Both the position numbers and the translations under genes were made by a program. From positions 39,012 through 103,011 of IMG/VR virus record IMGVR_UViG_3300048837_000398: DNA of 64,000 bases; one strand, written 5' to 3'. Position 1 is the stretch's first letter; each line of letters starts with the position of its first letter. Under the pieces are notes generated by a model. The model was not told the DNA's origin. It was given only the letters and a program-made list of their open reading frames with translations, and did no database searches. This document shows, in pieces, positions 9,065 through 21,899 of the stretch. This DNA is from a virus.

Positions 9065-9398
9065 AACTATCACTTCACTCACTAAGGAACTCTCGACAGC
9101 TCAAAAAGAGCTTTCCACCCTTTCTCTTCAGATCTCTACTCTCTCTACTGAGAAAGAGCAACTCACCGCCGTACTCCAAGAACGTCAGCGTTTGCTCGAG
9201 TACGTAGCATCTATTCTTCTCGAGATTCAGACTAACCTCGAAAAGTATCCAGCTCTCTTAAACATTCCGTCTAAAATCAAGATCTTCTGGGTAATCTCTA
9301 ATCTTGGCTCAATCATTTCTTTCCTTACTTTCCTCATTTCCAAGATCAAAGAGTTCGCAACAAACATCAAGTTTAATAAGGATGCTCCTGCTCAATAA
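9057..9398 (+). CDS. Coiled-coil protein with C-terminal hydrophobic segment
   Basis: A 113 aa protein. Residues 1-50 are a heptad-rich coiled coil (Leu/Ser/Thr/Glu), and residues about 76-96 (FWVISNLGSIISFLTFLISK) are hydrophobic enough for a membrane helix. It overlaps both groES and the next gene, showing operon structure. No family recognised. Confidence 0.52.
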   Translation: MAKTITSLTKELSTAQKELSTLSLQISTLSTEKEQLTAVLQERQRLLEYVASILLEIQTNLEKYPALLNIPSKIKIFWVISNLGSIISFLTFLISKIKEFATNIKFNKDAPAQ

Positions 9399-9876
9399 CT
9401 TTGATCCGTCACAAGACTTTTGGCTCTCTAATCCGCAAGCTCAAATCATCTTCGCTGACTACGTCAACACTCCTTCGTCACACATGTGGGCGGCTCTGCT
9501 CTATGCTCATCCAGAGTCAAAGCTGTTTAACGAGTCGCCCACGTCTCGACGTCTACTCATCATCGAAGACTATTTAAAAGACCCCTCTTTCGATTGAGAC
9601 TCTCTTCTTCCACTCATCGAAGCTATCAAAAGGCTAGCTCTTTCTAAGCCTCAACAGCTTCTTCTCAACTGGGAGAAGCGTATGTACGAACGAGAAGCTT
9701 TCATGGATTCGACCTCCTACTCTCAAGAGACGTATCAGATGAAAGAGCAGATGGCTAAGGAGACTCCTAAGATGTGGCAATCTTTTTTCCAGATACAAGA
9801 TCTCCTCTCGAAAGAGAAGGCGTCCGTCACTGAAGGAGATATCGAAGAATCGCTCTCTGAAAAAGGCTTAATCTAA
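9382..9876 (+). CDS. Hypothetical protein read through one UGA (Trp)
   Basis: A 164 aa protein if UGA at 9595-9597 is Trp (context PSFD-W-DSLLP). The two halves are in the same frame with no other stop between them and have the same composition, so this is not a frameshift. ATG at 9382 is chosen because it overlaps the previous gene by 17 nt; longer starts would run deep into that gene. The C-terminal part is helical and rich in Glu, Lys and Gln. It is the first rightward gene with an in-frame UGA. Function unknown. Confidence 0.6.
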
Positions 9877-11246: not shown

Positions 11247-11332
11247 ACTCTAGTGGCGGAATCGGTAGACGCTATACTAAGCAGCTGAAGCTAGGCAATT
11301 CAGCAGTACAGGTTCGAACCCTGTCTAGAGCA
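11247..11332 (+). tRNA. tRNA-like element (tRNA-Leu-type D-arm), anticodon unclear
   Basis: The D-arm GCGGAATCGGTAGACGC is the tRNA-Leu type, the T-arm is ACAGG-TTCGAAC-CCTGT, and the acceptor CTCTAG/CTAGAG has an A-C mismatch at the first pair. Between D- and T-arms 35 nt fail to form a standard anticodon arm; the best helix is GCTGAA/TTCAGC with a 9-nt loop GCTAGGCAA. It may be a degenerate or unusual tRNA. Confidence 0.5.
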
Positions 11333-12856: not shown

Positions 12857-12952
12857 GGGGGTGCTTCACTGTTGCAGAACAGGACTAGTCTTCAAAACTA
12901 GACGACTGGGGTCCAAACTCAGTTTATTCGGGTGCAAGTCCTGACACCCTCG
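12857..12952 (+). tRNA. UGA-reading suppressor tRNA, anticodon UCA, long variable arm
   Basis: The acceptor is GGGGGTG paired with CACCCTC, discriminator G. The anticodon stem CTAGT/ACTAG has loop CTTCAAA, giving anticodon TCA at 12892-12894. The T-arm is TCGGG-TGCAAGT-CCTGA. A 6-bp variable arm ACTGGG/CTCAGT (12905-12910 with 12918-12923) makes this a type II tRNA. A 5-bp D-stem CTGTT/AACAG with a GCAG tetraloop is possible. Length 96 nt, UCA anticodon, tetraloop D-arm and long variable arm recall tRNA-Sec, yet the in-frame UGAs fit Trp. CCA is not encoded. Confidence 0.85.
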
Positions 12953-13649: not shown

Positions 13650-16191
13650 TGGCGTAAATACTATTGCTAATGCAGTAGGATCAACTCTTGGCCCACTAGG
13701 CCGTAACGTAGTTATCGAAACTCCGTATGGCGCAACAACTGTTACTAAAGATGGTGTTACAGTTGCTCAACAAATTACTCTCGAAGATCCTCTCGAGAAC
13801 TTAGCTGTTCAAATTATTAAGCAGGCATCAGAGCGCACAGCTTCTATAGCTGGCGACGGACCACAGCCCCTTTATTCGAAAGTTCTCACACCAACTGGGT
13901 GGACAACTCTAGGTGAACTAAAAGTTGGAGATACCATTTGTGGTACAAATGGTACTACACAAAAGGTCGTAGGCTTTTACCCTAAAGGACCCTTACCTTT
14001 ATATAAGGTTATTTTTTCGGACGGAAGAACAGTTGAATGTTCGGAAGACCACTTGTGGACCGTGACCACTAATTACGGAAAACAAAAAACTCTGCCTCTA
14101 AGTGAGCTTATAAATCAAGGTTTGTCGTTAATTAACGACGACGGCCACAATAAGTACAAGTTTTTTGTTCAAACTACTGAAGTAGAATTTGATGAAAAAC
14201 CCCTCCCCTTAGATCCTTACTTTCTAGGAGTATTGCTTGGAGATGGTTCCCTAAGTGGAAGTGGTGCAATTGAGCTCTCGTTAGGCCTCAAGAAGGCACA
14301 CATACTACAAAAGCTTCTTTTGCCAGAAGGCATGAGTTTTACGATCGCTTTAGATGAATCTAAAAATTATATTAGAGTTAGATTTCAAGGTGCTGATAAA
14401 AATGGGAAAAATCTAAAAGACATTCTTTTAGATTTAAATTTGCTCGGAACACATAGCGCTACAAAATTTATTCCGGACCTATACCTCTATTCGAGCTTAA
14501 AATCTCGCGAAGCCCTTTTACAGGGTCTCGTAGACACTGATGGCCATGTTAATCTTCGTGGCAAATTCGAGTTTAGTACTATAAGCGACCAACTATCTGC
14601 CAACTTTCAAGATTTGGTACGCTCACTGGGCATTCAGACGCACTACACAAAGTTAGACCGAACATATTCTGGCGGATATTCTGTAAACCCAGTCCATCGG
14701 ATAGTAGAATTAAAAGGGTACAAACACGGCATCAAAATAGTAGATGTTCAACCTCAAAACAGATTTGAGGAGATGGTCTGTATTAAAGTTTCAAACGATG
14801 ACCATTTGTACATCACAGATGAATATGTCGTCACACATAATACAACTACTGCAACAGTACTCGCGCAAAAGCTTTATTCCGAAGCACTTAAACTAGTTAA
14901 CTCGGGTGTCGCCCCTATCCACATCAAGAACGATTACGAAGCCTACTTAAAAGCTATCGCCCCTCTTATCGACGATAATACGCTCCAGATTACGACGCCT
15001 CAAGACACGTACCAGATCGCACTTATTTCTGCGAATAACGATCCGACTATTGCATCTCTTATTTCGACAGCTATCGAATACGTAGGCAAGGATGGCTCGA
15101 TTACACTCGAAGAGTCTAAGACTGGCGAGTCGTATGTAGAGCTAGTAGACGGTACTTCTTTCGAGCGCCCTTACGCTTCTCCGTACTTCGTCACTAATCC
15201 GCCTAAAGGGACAGCTGAACTCACCAATCCGCTCATCTTTATTACGGATAAGAAACTTCGCTACAATCAAGAGCTTCTTCCCGTACTCAACTTAGCAGCC
15301 GATAACTCACGTCCACTAGTTATTATTGCAGACGATATCGAAGGTCAAGCTCTTCAGACGCTCGTCATCAACAAGCTTCGCGGTACTATCGAGGTGCTAG
15401 CTATCAGAGCTCCTTCGTACGGTGAGAACCGTCTCGAAGTACTTAAAGACCTCGCAGCCCTCACTTCAGCGAACCTTATTACAGAGCTCTCTGGAACACG
15501 TATCGAAGATGTTAAGCTCACTGATTTAGGTGAAGCGGCTAAAGTGATTTCTTCGCGTCACCAAACTATCATTGTTGATGGTGTTCAAGATCCCACCCAA
15601 ATCGAAGCTCGTGCGAGTACAATCACACAGCTTCTCGCTCAACATCAGCCAGACTCATATTTCTATAAGCAGCTCTCTACTCGACTAGCTAAGCTCACTG
15701 CTAAGGTTGCAGTGCTCAATGTAGGAGCACCTACAGAAACCGAGCTTAAAGAGCGCAAAGCCCGTGTTGACGACGCACTTCGAGCTACTACAGCAGCTAT
15801 TAAAACTGGTTTCGTAGTTGGTGGCGGTACGCTTCTCGCTAAGCTCTCGACTACCCTCCCTAACGATCTTTCGTCTAAAGCCTTCGCACTAGCTCTTCAA
15901 GAACCTCTTCGTCGAATAGCTGAAAATGCTGGACAATCTCCGTCTCTCGTCCTTTCAAAAGTACTTGAGAACCCTTCGATTTCATTCGGTTATAACGCTT
16001 TAACTGACTCCTATACAGATCTTATCGAAGACAAGGTTATCGATCCTGCACTCGTAGTGAAGCAAGCGCTACTCTCCGCAGTTTCAGCAGCAAACATGCT
16101 CATCCTATCTTCGACTGCAGTCTACAATGTAGATCGCACTCCTCCTTATTCTCCAGGCTCTCTAAATGATTTTGAATCGCACGAATCCTAA
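13600..16191 (+). CDS. groEL: GroEL-like chaperonin (Cpn60) interrupted by an intein
   Basis: An 863 aa precursor giving a 536 aa chaperonin after intein removal, close to the 540-550 aa of bacterial GroEL. Family marks: [24 protein letters not shown], the ATP-site motif [11 protein letters not shown] split by the intein, [15 protein letters not shown], and the AxNAGxxPSxVL-type equatorial segment. The C-terminal GGM tail of GroEL is absent. With phage GroES it would form a folding chamber, perhaps for capsid, tail or RNA polymerase-like proteins. The last codons overlap terL (ATG 16166), tying chaperonin and packaging genes together. Confidence 0.93.
13861..14841 (+). mobile_element. Intein in GroEL ATP site, class 3-like, with LAGLIDADG endonuclease
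   Basis: A 327-residue insert (precursor residues 88-414) sits exactly between GDG and TTTATVLA. It starts with Pro, not Cys or Ser ([20 protein letters not shown]), and ends VVTHN before Thr415. Block B has DHLW (Trp153), block F has MVCIKV (Cys394), and the first C-extein residue is Thr415. Trp, Cys, Thr with no Cys1 is the signature of class 3 inteins. Two LAGLIDADG motifs ([20 protein letters not shown]) mark a homing endonuclease. No UGA codon occurs inside. Confidence 0.88.
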
Positions 16192-19100
16192 CGACTTCAT
16201 AGTCGAGATTCCGCAGCATCATCCGCTTTCTTCAGCATATTTATCGTTCTGACGCGAGCAAAAAAGACGTTCAATAGAAGGTTATTGGGTAGGTGGCATT
16301 TGAATGCCTCCTGCCCTTTACTATTATGCGAACTTCGGAACAATCAAGAAGAACCGCTCTAAGTATTCAGCTTCCTCCAAGATCTATGCGCGGCCTGACT
16401 TACGAGACATCGAATGGGATCTATTCTATCTCTATACAGAAGCGCGAGGATTCTCAGGATTTTCTCTCGACCCCGTCTACTCCTCTAACAAAGCTCTACT
16501 TGACGCAGAAGTAACTGACGATATTCTTCGACTTCACCTGCCATCTACACTCAAGGCTGACGGATCTCGCAAAACATTCGTTCCAGCTCGCGAGTATATG
16601 CGCGCTCTACACCCTACCCAACTAGGCGCACCTCTTTTCGAAAATGAAAAGCAGAACCTTCTTCTTCTCGGTACTCGAGATCTCGGCAAGTCGTATGCTG
16701 TAGGTGTAGGCATGGTTGGCCACATGTTCCTTTTCGATGGCGCAACTTCTTATTCAGAGTCTCGCGAAGAGCTCTCTCCAGCTGAAGTTCTTGTAGGAGC
16801 ATCTGTTTCAGACAAATCTCGAGATCTACTTAAAAAAACAAAAGACTCGTTCGATTTCTTACCGGGCAAGCAAATCATCGCCTCACGCACTTACCCTTCT
16901 CCTTTCTCTAAACAGTACACAGGCTCGTGAGCAGTTAATGCTGATATCAAGGCCGAATATAAAAAGAAGTCTGATGGGCGATGGGAGACAGTGGGCTCCC
17001 GCTCTACGATTAAGCATCGCTCTTTCAACGAAAACCCGTTTGCTGCACAAGGTACTCGCCCTGACTTACTTGTCATCGAGGAAGCTGGTCTAGCTTCAGA
17101 GCTCAAAGACATCTTCGTGCACACTGTCGACACACTGCGTCGAGGTCTAACTAAGACTGGGACATTGCTTTGCTTGGGTTGTGTCGTAGCTGGCACTAAA
17201 GTTTGAACATCTAAAGGTAAACTTCTAAACGTCGAAGATCTTACCGTAGAAGATGGAATCTTAGGTTACTCTGGATCAGCAATTGTACCTCTACCAATCA
17301 CTAACATTAACCCAATCGCAGTAAAACAGTGTGTCAGAATTACGACCGAAGGTAACAACGTTATCGAAGCCTCTATAGACCACCCATTTTTAGCCTCTTC
17401 TCGTAAAGAACGGCTTTCTAACACAACGTACAATTATAATTTCAAGCAAGCCGCTACACTAAACGTAGGTGATTACTTAGCGCTAGCTAACGAAATCCCG
17501 TTTTTTGGAGAAGTCGAGGAAAAAGACGCTTACTTAATAGGGCTGATGCTCGGTGACGGCTACTTTAAAGGCTCGTCAGTTTCGATCGATAACGACGAAG
17601 TCTACAACTTTATTTCGACTAACTACGAAACGTCTACACACAAAAGGTACGAAACTAAAAAAGGGACGCTGTACTACGAGCTCTACATAAAAGGGATTAG
17701 TCAAAAGCTAAAAACTCTAGGGCTAACGGATCTTACTAAAGAACAAAAAGATTTTCCGCTTACAGCACAAGAATTTTCGAAAGAGTCTTTAGCACTTCTG
17801 CTAGCAGGTTGCTTCGACTCAGATGGAAATGTCAATAGGTCTAAAAAGACAACACGTGTTGTTCTAACTAATATTTCGTTAAAACTACTTCAATCGGTTA
17901 AATGGGCCCTTTTAAAATTTGGCATCCATTCTTCGATCTACAAAGAGAAACGAAACACGAAGCCCCCTAAAGGCTACGAAAATCAGCTACCGCATATTTA
18001 CAGACTCTACATTTCTAGAGACGCAGACGTCGCCACGTTTAAGCAGTACATTCCAATTAAGCATTCTAAAAAAGTCGAAACTCTAGGCCAATTTACTCCA
18101 GGTAATCGTCAAGTTGGAAAACACTTAGGAGTCTTCACACTTACAAACCGCCATGAAGACGAAACATTCTTAGCCGATAACTCGTCGATTTCTAACTTTA
18201 GATTCGTACGCGTGACTTCTGTCGAGGCAATTGGTGAAAAAGAAATCTACAACCTAACTGCAGGAGAATATCATAACTATCTAGCCAATGGCTTCATCAC
18301 CCATAACACAGGTGGAGACATGCAGAAGGGCACGCTCGCAGCTTCCGAAATGTTTTACGAGCCCGAGAAATACGACTTCCTTTCTTTCGAAGATACTTAC
18401 GAGTCTCGAGGCAAGATAGCATATTTTGTGCCCGCCTACTATTCTCTCGATAAGTTTCGAGACGATTGGGGTTACGTAGACATTCAAAAAGCTACAGAAA
18501 GCCTACTGCTTAAACGCAAGAAACTAGCTGGTGATTCTGGAGGTTCGTTCGCTCTCGACCAAGAGATGCAGTATCGTCCTCTCGTACCTTCCGAGATGTT
18601 TCTTTCGAAAGCAGCTAACATATTCCCGTTCGCAGAAATACGCCGCCGTCTCTCAGAACTACAGACTACGAAAGAATACGAAATGTACGAGCACAAGGTC
18701 AACCTATATTTTGACCCTTCTTCACAGTATAATGGTGTGTCGTACGCTATCGACCCCTCGCTAAATCCGATCACACGTTTCCCGTGAGACTCTGACGACA
18801 GAGAAGGTGCAGTAGTTATCTACGACTTCCCGCACTTAGAAGATGGTAAAGTGCCTCCTGGCGCTTATATCATAGGATGCGACCCTTTTAAAGATGATTC
18901 ACCTGACGGGCCCTCACTCGCCGCTGTCTACGTCATGAAGACGTCTAAGTACTTTGCGACGATAGGCCACGACGAAATAGTAGCATCTTACATAGGTCGT
19001 CCATACATGGGTAAGAATGCTGTCAACGAGATCCTGCATAAACTAGCGCTCTTCTACAACGCTAAAATTTACTTCGAAAATTCTGTCGGCAACGTAAAAG

Positions 19101-19552
19101 ACTACTTCGAAAAAGTTCGACGCCTCGACCTACTCGCTACGCAGCCAACTACAATTTTCAACAAAAAAGCTTCGTTCCTTTCGAATCAATCGTTCATCTA
19201 TGGCTACCCCATGCCAAACCAAAAAGTTAAGTGGGAAGCTCTGCAGTATCTACGAGCTTGGCTACTTACAGAACGTTCAGACTCTAAAAGAAACTTAGAC
19301 CTCATCAAAGATCCAGCCCTTCTTCAAGAACTTATTTCGTTTAACCTCGACGGAAACTTCGACAGAGTCATGGGCCTCACTGGCTGCATAATAGGGCTCG
19401 AAGAAATATATAACCTACAAAGACGCACCGAGCATTATCAAAAAGAATCTTCGGAGCTAGACAAAGAATTTACTAGACTTATTGTCAACAACAAAAAACT
19501 TTTCCATGAAAATTTTTCCAAAACAAAGGCTAGCGTACTCTGAGAAAATTAA
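16166..19552 (+). CDS. terL: Terminase large subunit with intein and six UGA (Trp) codons
   Basis: An 1128 aa precursor, 752 aa after intein removal. It pumps DNA into the procapsid and cuts it. The ATG at 16166 ([11 protein letters not shown]) overlaps groEL; the N-terminus reads GYWVGGI-W-MPPALYYY, typical of crAss-like TerL. The ATPase domain has Walker A GTRDLGKS (169-176), Walker B LLVIEEAG (near 305) and coupling motif TGGDMQKG, split by the intein. The nuclease domain begins near YIIGCDPFKDD. In-frame UGA lies at 16250, 16301, 16928, 17204, 18785 and 19541; the last is followed by Glu-Asn-TAA. All fragments share one frame. Confidence 0.93.
17180..18307 (+). mobile_element. Intein in TerL coupling motif with LAGLIDADG endonuclease
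   Basis: A 376-residue insert (precursor residues 339-714) starts at Cys (CVVAGTKVWTSKGKLLNVED) and ends ANGFITHN directly before TGGDMQKG, so splicing would restore CLG-TGGDM. The block F-like stretch is EIYNLTAGEYHNYLANG. Two LAGLIDADG motifs (IGLMLGDGYF, LLAGCFDSDG) mark a homing endonuclease. This is a class 1 intein (Cys1, His-Asn end, Thr+1). One Trp of the intein (KV-W-TS) is encoded by UGA at 17204, so the element is fitted to the phage code. Confidence 0.9.
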
Positions 19553-21899
19553 GTCGGACTTCAAATGGGCGAAAGAAACTATCGACCACTTGCTTCTTAA
19601 TTTTACTCTCGAGGCTACCGTAGTCAATCAATATCACACTGACTACTTCAGAAAGCTTTCTAATTACCAGCTCTATAACAATCAGCTAAACCAAAAAGAT
19701 TTCGAAAAAGAGTGTAACCCACTCGGCATCGATGTCGGGCAATTTGCTGACGAGATTCAACCGTACAACAAAACGTACAACAAGATTCAAGTCTTGCTAG
19801 GTGAGGAGCTGCGTCGTCCGTTCAACTTCCGAACTATACTTGTCAATTCAGAAGGAGTTCGTTCGAAGATCGCACACCGTAACGCACTAATTCGTCAATA
19901 CGTAGAAACGCAAGTAAAGAAAACTCTAGCTCAATTCTCTGAGCTCTATTCTGAAGAACTGCTAGAAGAAGCTTCGACTCCGACGCTCGACCCTTCGCAG
20001 ATAGATGTCTACATGAAGACTACGTATCTCGACGCACGCGAACGACTTTCTTCGCAGATGCTGCGCTACCTACTCCGTTCACTCGACATCAAAGACAAAC
20101 AGTCTGATGGCTTTAAACACGCATGCATTGCTGGCGAAGAACTTGTCTACGTGTCTTCATTTCGTAACGAACCAGTACTCGAGATCGTTAATCCGCTCGG
20201 ATTCTTTTCGCACAAATCACCCGAGACTAAGTGAGTTCAAGACTCTCTTTTCGCAGGCTATCGTACGTATCTCACTCCTTCAGAAGTCCTAGATCGTTAT
20301 GGCGACTACTTGACAGAAGAACAACGTAAGACCATCGACTCTACTTCGATGGCACCATCAGGCATCAAGTCTGACACTATCTCTGGAGCACATCGTTACG
20401 GTCACGAAAACATGGATCGCAACGAATCGACAACTCCTTTCTTCGAAGGTTCGTATTCACCGTCATCCGTAGAAGACTGGCTAGTCGAGCACGTAGAATG
20501 GCGCTCACAACGTAAGGTAGGCTTTCTCATCACCACTCCACTAGACCAAGAACCTTCTGAGCAGATCGTATCTGAAGACTTCGAAGTTCCGTCTATCGCC
20601 TCGAAGACAACTATCTTAAAAGAGTACAATCGAAAGCAAACGTCGTACAATTGGACAGACGAGCTAGGCACTTCTTACTCACTTCACTGGTCGTGGATTC
20701 CTGAAGTTTGGCAAGGTACTCGTATCGGTCGCACTATCTACTGTATGATAGGCCCTAAAGAAGAGCAGTTCCGTTCGCAAGATAATCCGTACGAAGTAAA
20801 GCTCGGTTATCATGGCCTGGTCTATAATGCGATGAACGCTTCGTCTATCTCGATAATGGACCGCATGAAGCCTTTTGCTTATCTCTACTTTATCGTGATG
20901 CACAAGCTCAAAAAGCTCATTGCTCAAGACCAAGGCAAAGTGTTCCCTATCGACGTTTCGATGATAGATCCTAAGATAGGACTCGAGAAGACACTCTACT
21001 ACCTAAAAGAACTCAACTTAGACTTCTATAACCCGCTTCAAAATGCTGAAGTTCCTTCAGTAGCTCAGCGTGGTAAAGTTACTTCTGCGATCGACATGTC
21101 GAACATGCAGCACATACTTAACTACGTATCCTTACTCGGCGCACTAGATCAGCAAATTTCTGAAGTGGCAGGCGTAACGCGCCAACGTGAAGGGCAGATT
21201 CTACCTACTGAAGCTGTTACTAATGCAGCAGCTAACGCACAAATGTCGTCAGTGATTACGCAGATTTATTTTCAGGCTCACGATAAACTCTGGGAAAAGA
21301 TTCTCACTTCTCTTCTTCAAGTAACACGCCAAGCTTGGAAAAACAAGAAGATCGTGAAGCAATATGTTCTCGACGATCTATCAGTAGCTACTCTCGAAAT
21401 GTCTGAAGACGCGCTTCAAGATGCAGACTTAGGGGTTTTTGTTACGGACTCTGGTAAAGAAGTCGAAATGTTTGACGCGCTCAAGGGCATGGCTGATGGA
21501 TTACTCAACACAAACCGAGCTACGTTCTCAGACCTCATCAAGATGTACAAATCTAACTCTGCAGAAGAACTTCAAAAGCTTATCGAAGATTCTGAAGACA
21601 AGATGCGCGAGCAAGAATCTCAAAGTCAACAGCAACAGATCGAAGCTGCTCAACAGGCTCAACAAGCTGAACAACAGTTCGAACTCGAGAAGCAAGCGCG
21701 TGAGCACGAAAATCAAATTACTCTTGCTGAAATTAATTCGTTCCGTTTCCAAGATAACCAAGACATAAATAGCAATCAAGTACCTGACCAACTTGAAGTA
21801 GCTAAGCTTAAATACGACCAAGAATTCAGAAACCGTAAGCTCGACTTAGAAGAACGCTCTGTTAAAGTGAAAGAAAAACAAGCTTCTAAACCTAAATAA
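19506..21899 (+). CDS. Portal protein
   Basis: A 797 aa protein of the size of crAss-like portals, which form the dodecameric DNA gate at one capsid vertex. It directly follows terL and overlaps its end; start ATG 19506 (MKIFPKQRLAYSEK) is chosen over an in-frame start 24 nt upstream. One UGA (20232-20234) lies in SPETK-W-VQDSLFAGYRTYLTPSEV, a portal-like segment. The C-terminal 130 residues are a long Gln/Glu-rich coiled coil (QSQQQQIEAAQQAQQAEQQ), expected for the barrel/crown. Assignment rests on position, size and layout. Confidence 0.85.

Follow-up and report, generated by a model that had tools for sequence, protein, structure and literature searches.

Phage tRNAs with two anticodon arms: a probable division of labor between stop-codon reading and tryptophan identity

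Phages have likely evolved, on repeated occasions, tRNAs in which the jobs of the anticodon are split between an arm that reads a stop codon and an arm that confers Trp identity, and this appears to include tRNAs by which UAG is read as Trp. One of these genes is located in the window, i.e., the 64,000-nucleotide stretch analyzed here, which comprises bases 39012-103011 of the 103,011-base virus record IMGVR_UViG_3300048837_000398. With good confidence it can be assigned to a stop-reading Trp tRNA with two anticodon arms, the second of which would present CCA to the host TrpRS. The two-armed build, its conservation in many lineages and the placement of Trp at UGA and UAG codons were established by sequence comparison.

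The window tRNA is a real tRNA encoded in an intergenic gap (Table 1), and further contigs of this phage, obtained from other samples, carry it as well. Direct reading confirmed what a preliminary description had reported of it, namely a UCA anticodon, G73, a 6-bp variable arm and, given there as possible, a D-arm with a tetraloop. Overlooked at that time was the loop of the variable arm, which has the form of a 7-base anticodon loop with U33, C34 C35 A36, A37 and A38, and whose CCA is the anticodon of tRNA-Trp. In the first arm, a stem of 5 bp closes a 7-base loop with UCA, as required for decoding of UGA. The tRNA belongs to a two-armed class in which arm 1 has a stop anticodon (UCA or CUA) and arm 2 has a paired stem with a 7-base loop containing CCA, combined with G73 and with acceptor and T stems of 7 and 5 bp. 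The window copy shows some degeneration, with G1-C72, G2.U71, a G at position 55 and no GG in the D loop. It folds more stably than most of its dinucleotide-shuffled versions (z = -2.7), and the cloverleaf is within 1 kcal/mol of the minimum free energy. ARAGORN, one of the checks proposed in the preliminary description, did not call this tRNA, and a blastn search with it yielded no useful match among phage and plasmid records. Neither a second UCA tRNA nor, in particular, the standard tRNA-Trp(UCA) that had been named beforehand as contrary evidence was found elsewhere in the 103,011-base record.

Table 1. Elements of the two-armed tRNA gene and UGA-containing reading frames of the window (numbered from the first letter of the window).
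Feature	Positions	Strand	Evidence or remark
tRNA gene, UCA anticodon, G73, long variable arm with CCA loop	12857-12952	+	direct reading, Rfam, fold, homologs
Acceptor stem, GGGGGUG/CACCCUC, 7 bp including one G.U	12857-12863/12945-12951	+	direct reading
D-arm CUGUU[GCAG]AACAG, 5 bp and tetraloop, without GG	12869-12882	+	direct reading, fold, covariation with L142
First anticodon arm CUAGU[CUUCAAA]ACUAG	12885-12901	+	UCA at 12892-12894, for UGA
Second anticodon arm in the position of the variable arm, ACUGGG[GUCCAAA]CUCAGU	12905-12923	+	loop 12911-12917, CCA 12913-12915
T-arm UCGGG[UGCAAGU]CCUGA	12928-12944	+	direct reading; G at position 55 unusual
Discriminator G73	12952	+	direct reading
Terminase large subunit (TerL) with intein, six in-frame UGA	16166-19552	+	residues 29, 46 and 255 Trp in relatives
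ORF with UGA at residue 72	9382-9876	+	Trp at this site in 75 relatives of the 78 aligned
ORF in portal position directly downstream of TerL, one UGA	19506-21899	+	residue 243 Trp in nearest relative

The best matches of TerL among annotated records were proteins of crAss-like phages, and the head protein and the intein-bearing GroEL of the window also matched phage families. Besides TerL, in-frame UGA codons were present in the adjoining ORF and in many other genes on both strands. At the UGA of TerL residue 29, the relatives contained Trp in 82 cases and UGA in three, and Trp was found in 84 of 85 relatives at residue 46 and in 68 of 84 at residue 255. Compared to the nearest relative, about 10 of the window's UGA sites corresponded to Trp and five to a shared UGA, whereas Ser was never observed opposite these sites in the aligned relatives. 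Less conserved sites, such as TerL residue 874 and those in the intein interior, showed mixed residues. Judged by these matches and alignments, the source record is a crAss-like phage of 103 kb in which UGA encodes Trp. The preliminary description had rightly pointed out the puzzle of a long variable arm combined with UGA sites that look like Trp positions. The ORF in portal position served as the query that retrieved further related phages. A phage-encoded synthetase of the TrpRS/TyrRS type was considered and rejected, since no gene of this family was found in six phage records with such tRNAs.

Inserts bearing LAGLIDADG motifs are present in the phage GroEL (13600-16191) and in TerL. An intein splicing domain was matched in TerL, and the GroEL of the nearest relative, with 533 amino acids, is intein-free by its length. 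The 'Candidatus Dependentiae' MAG RXKB01 includes two contigs of crAss-like relatives (L162, L163), either because of a link to the host or because they were wrongly binned.

No loop criterion was involved in finding the tRNAs of the window and of the contigs L142 and L126. A pattern composed of a UCA loop, UCCAAA and a T loop matched 52 viral stretches, compared to an estimated 4-5 expected by chance, and nearly all of these stretches fold as perfect tRNAs of the two-armed build. Because UCCAAA was part of this pattern, by which most family members were retrieved, the search was repeated with only a D-arm motif and the UCA loop. This unbiased scan agreed with the former one: it yielded 31 UCA tRNAs, 23 with a long arm and eight of type I, and CCA in a 7-base loop was present in all of the long-arm tRNAs (22 with UCCAAA, one with UCCAUA) and in none of the type I tRNAs. 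Ordinary type II tRNAs for Ser, Leu and Tyr from the contigs analyzed had UCCA at that place in 0 of 58 cases. Pairing in the second stem amounted to 94% over 47 distinct UCA tRNAs, the window included, whereas controls with shuffled 3' strands reached a mean of 56% and a maximum of 66% (5000 shuffles) and those with slid strands 30-47%. Taken together with the amber case described below, the UCA tRNAs formed 24 clusters at 80% identity. Some of these suppressors are labeled 'tRNA-Sec' or 'Pyl' by tRNA finders.

All 47 tRNAs carry G73, for which the structural filter gave a bonus without requiring it, and A1-U72, G3-C70 and G5-C68 are present in 36, 37 and 38 of them, respectively. These acceptor features agree with the bacterial Trp identity set, which includes G73, G3-C70, G4-C69, G5-C68, C35 and A36 (PMC9976931). 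The window tRNA possesses all six of these elements, but instead of A1-U72, G2-C71, A9 and C34 it has G1-C72, G2.U71, U9 and U34; CCA in a 7-base anticodon loop is present, but in its second arm. At in-frame UGA codons of the other phages of the family, Trp was the commonest counterpart (35 of the 75 sites at which the partner was not UGA), and there was no majority for Ser.

A homolog of the window tRNA was located at L142:1270-1366. The variable loop GUCCAAA is identical in both, and compensatory changes occurred in the acceptor, D, anticodon and variable stems, including the D stem (CCGUU/AACGG in L142) and two pairs of the first anticodon arm. A further homolog with compensatory changes is present in L204. 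In L126 and near-identical contigs, a long-arm UCA tRNA occupies the same position upstream of GroEL and TerL. L010, the nearest relative covering the tRNA region, has an ordinary type I UCA tRNA at this position and reads UGA as Trp, so that some phages evidently manage with no CCA arm. L143 and L144, two recoded relatives represented by fragments, showed no two-armed tRNA within these fragments.

Several other RNAs were observed in these phages. Genes for phage tmRNA lie upstream of the UCA tRNA in two contigs (L010:6935-7215, L126:4360-4606). In L171, which belongs to the recoded phage L144, the minus strand at about 1500-1600 contains a 3' half that resembles tRNA-Trp and includes a GUCCAAA arm; a search for the 5' half of this RNA did not find one, and the tRNA may be split or permuted, or it may have degenerated. 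The window itself encodes a tRNA-Leu-like RNA at 11247-11332 (+) with an Rfam tRNA score of 32 bits and no recognizable anticodon arm, and two relatives encode similar anticodon-less tRNA-like RNAs, namely L175 and L020, the latter with a strong fold (z -4.65). A tRNA-Phe-like stretch extending from the D to the T arm, which lacks a matching acceptor stem, was seen at L006:11082-11138 (-).

If arm 2 sets identity, a tRNA with CUA in arm 1 should give UAG as Trp. When UCA was exchanged for CUA in the search pattern, one perfect two-armed tRNA was retrieved, located on the 146-kb contig IMGVR_UViG_3300028805_000058 (L251); the other six of the seven matches were chance matches without a tRNA fold. 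The CUA/CCA tRNA adjoins the phage's own tRNA-Trp(CCA), and no other CUA tRNA was found in the 146-kb record. When UAG was treated as a sense codon in the regions first examined, the total ORF length increased from 16,651 to 26,305 amino acids with 145 in-frame UAG codons, whereas treating UGA as sense in the same regions led to little gain. Opposite the UAG sites, the relatives had Trp in 19 of 35 cases, a stop codon in four and Gln in none. The exchange is visible across three phages in the sequences STKSTG-UAG-SIF, STKSSG-UGG-AIF and STKSSG-UGA-AIF. As UAG mostly stands opposite UGG or UGA of the relatives, these alignments argue that UAG is Trp in the 146-kb phage. This phage carries genes for a tape-measure protein and a DNA polymerase, and the class is consequently not confined to crAss-like phages.

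In the mechanism that we propose, arm 1 at the normal place would read UGA on the ribosome by means of UCA, while arm 2, which replaces the variable arm, would offer CCA to TrpRS, which recognizes this anticodon along with G73 and an acceptor stem rich in G-C pairs. The enzyme of the host could then charge the tRNA with Trp despite its non-CCA decoding anticodon, and the charged UCA tRNA would cause phage UGA codons to be read as Trp. Bacterial TrpRS depends on C34, C35 and A36 (PMC9976931), and this requirement would explain why a change from CCA to UCA alone is insufficient in many hosts. We infer that TrpRS contacts the CCA arm and that charging proceeds through it, and likewise that decoding is carried out by the two-armed tRNA and not by another one that escaped notice. 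Among the three options offered by the preliminary description, these data fit the one in which TrpRS accepts an unusual type II tRNA, and with a variable arm that mimics the Trp anticodon arm the puzzle of the long arm and the Trp sites is resolved.

With respect to origin, the 3' half of one family member, from the second arm to the end, matched ordinary phage tRNA-Trp(CCA) genes at 83-87%, and a normal tRNA-Trp(CCA) gene lies close to the two-armed one in three phages (G025, G026, G027), with an identical T arm in G025, the phage with UAG as Trp. The match and the neighboring genes suggest that the anticodon arm was duplicated and that the first copy was turned into a stop anticodon. In L179, the CCA arm sits on a body that is 75% like a phage tRNA-Ser, and for this reason the combination of a stop arm and a CCA arm probably arose more than once. 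Two further candidates were not two-armed tRNAs: a 'tRNA-SeC' called by ARAGORN in the relative L060 is a chance call inside a reading frame, and a match in an Ochrobactrum phage (H47) is an ordinary tRNA-Trp(CCA).

Such a duplication also bears on an alternative, in which the tRNA has two states and either the CCA arm or the UCA arm stacks under the D stem, the former for TrpRS and the latter for the ribosome; in the CCA state, such a tRNA may also read UGG. We regard this as less probable than the mechanism described above. The order D arm, arm 1, linker, arm 2, 4-nt linker and T arm resembles a duplication of anticodon arm plus variable loop, the second linker has the normal length of a variable loop (4 nt) in 40 of the 47 tRNAs, and the alignment of the 3' half with ordinary tRNA-Trp points in the same direction. 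Against two states speak the variation of the linker between the two arms, from 2 to 10 nt, and the position of arm 1 immediately after the D region, which is the usual arrangement in type II tRNAs.

It is rather improbable that the second arm is a relic, i.e., that an ordinary type II suppressor is recognized by TrpRS through the acceptor, G73, C35 and A36, and that the CCA loop is a functionless remnant of a duplication. L010 and some other phages have type I UCA tRNAs that lack a second arm, in accordance with such a relic. The retention of CCA in each of the 23 long-arm tRNAs and across the 24 clusters speaks against it, as do the maintenance of the second stem by compensatory changes and the occurrence of the CCA arm also on the tRNA-Ser body of L179 and together with CUA in L251.

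Capture and re-purposing of a tRNA-Sec, as considered in the preliminary description, is very improbable. The UCA anticodon, G73, the long variable arm and the D tetraloop are indeed features of tRNA-Sec, and tRNA-Sec (RF01852) was the best match of the window copy within the tRNA clan of Rfam. The score of this covariance model, which had been suggested as a check, was 26.8 bits compared to a cut-off of 47, and the relatives reached at most 38.9 bits. In the window, L142, L126 and other members, the acceptor and T stems add up to 12 bp (7/5), with the T stem running straight into the acceptor strand, whereas tRNA-Sec has a branch of 13 bp (8/5 or 9/4). No SelA gene was found in six phage records with such tRNAs, although the host could encode SelA, and the nearest annotated sequences of the family members were tRNA-Trp and, for one of them, tRNA-Ser. 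A tRNA-Sec identity was rejected based on the stem lengths, the Rfam score, the Trp codon sites and the absence of SelA from the six records. Charging by SerRS with UGA being partly Ser, the remaining suggestion, has equally little probability: a long variable arm and G73 are determinants for SerRS (PMC9976931) and the window tRNA also has C72, but it contains G2.U71 in place of G2-C71, L142 has the known SerRS antideterminant C2-G71 together with U72, the second arm is separated from the T stem by 3-4 nt compared to 1 nt in the phage's own tRNA-Ser, and the codon sites contradict it.

In the textbook view, a single anticodon of a tRNA serves the ribosome and, for enzymes like TrpRS, also the synthetase, and this coupling is thought to limit which codons can change their meaning. 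If our proposal of a decoding arm and an identity arm is correct, a second anticodon that serves identity only breaks the coupling of decoding and charging. A stop codon could then become a Trp codon without a new synthetase, which would explain recoding by phages in hosts with the standard code and provide a design rule for genetic-code engineering. It would also help to account for the failure of tRNA finders to detect or correctly name these suppressors. In the open-access literature, we found neither a natural tRNA with two anticodon arms or with a variable arm containing the Trp anticodon nor a report on phages reading UAG as Trp. The two-armed architecture is provisionally considered as new, since the search covered open-access papers, whereas the surrounding UGA recoding is of a known kind.

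Allo-tRNAs, which have an 8/4 or 9/3 branch, share the long variable arm with the window tRNA, which differs from them by the 7/5 branch and the CCA loop. Ordinary phage tRNA-Trp(CCA) genes, e.g., those of Proteus phages and of G025, G026 and G027, have G73 and similar acceptor and T arms, to which the two-armed tRNA adds an upstream arm with a stop anticodon. tRNA-Sec (PMC7609411) has UCA, the long variable arm and G73 in common with the window tRNA and differs by its 13-bp acceptor/T branch, the lack of a CCA loop and the amino acid, which is Trp here. Also close are the opal suppressors tRNA-SUP-TCA (Trp) of crAss-like phages, for which reading of UGA as Trp is known (Yutin et al., 2021, PMC7886860; zeta group, PMC12386605). 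As in our case, a phage-borne UCA tRNA is combined with UGA as Trp in TerL and other genes, but the available portions of these two papers mention no second anticodon arm. Their authors suspected that divergent suppressors escape detection, and the single example from the zeta group, that of phage Lera, was classified by tRNAscan-SE as Trp or Arg. The thrS operator of E. coli likewise attracts a synthetase by mimics of the anticodon arm (PMC9976931); there, the mimic belongs to an uncharged control element of an mRNA, whereas here it would act inside a tRNA.
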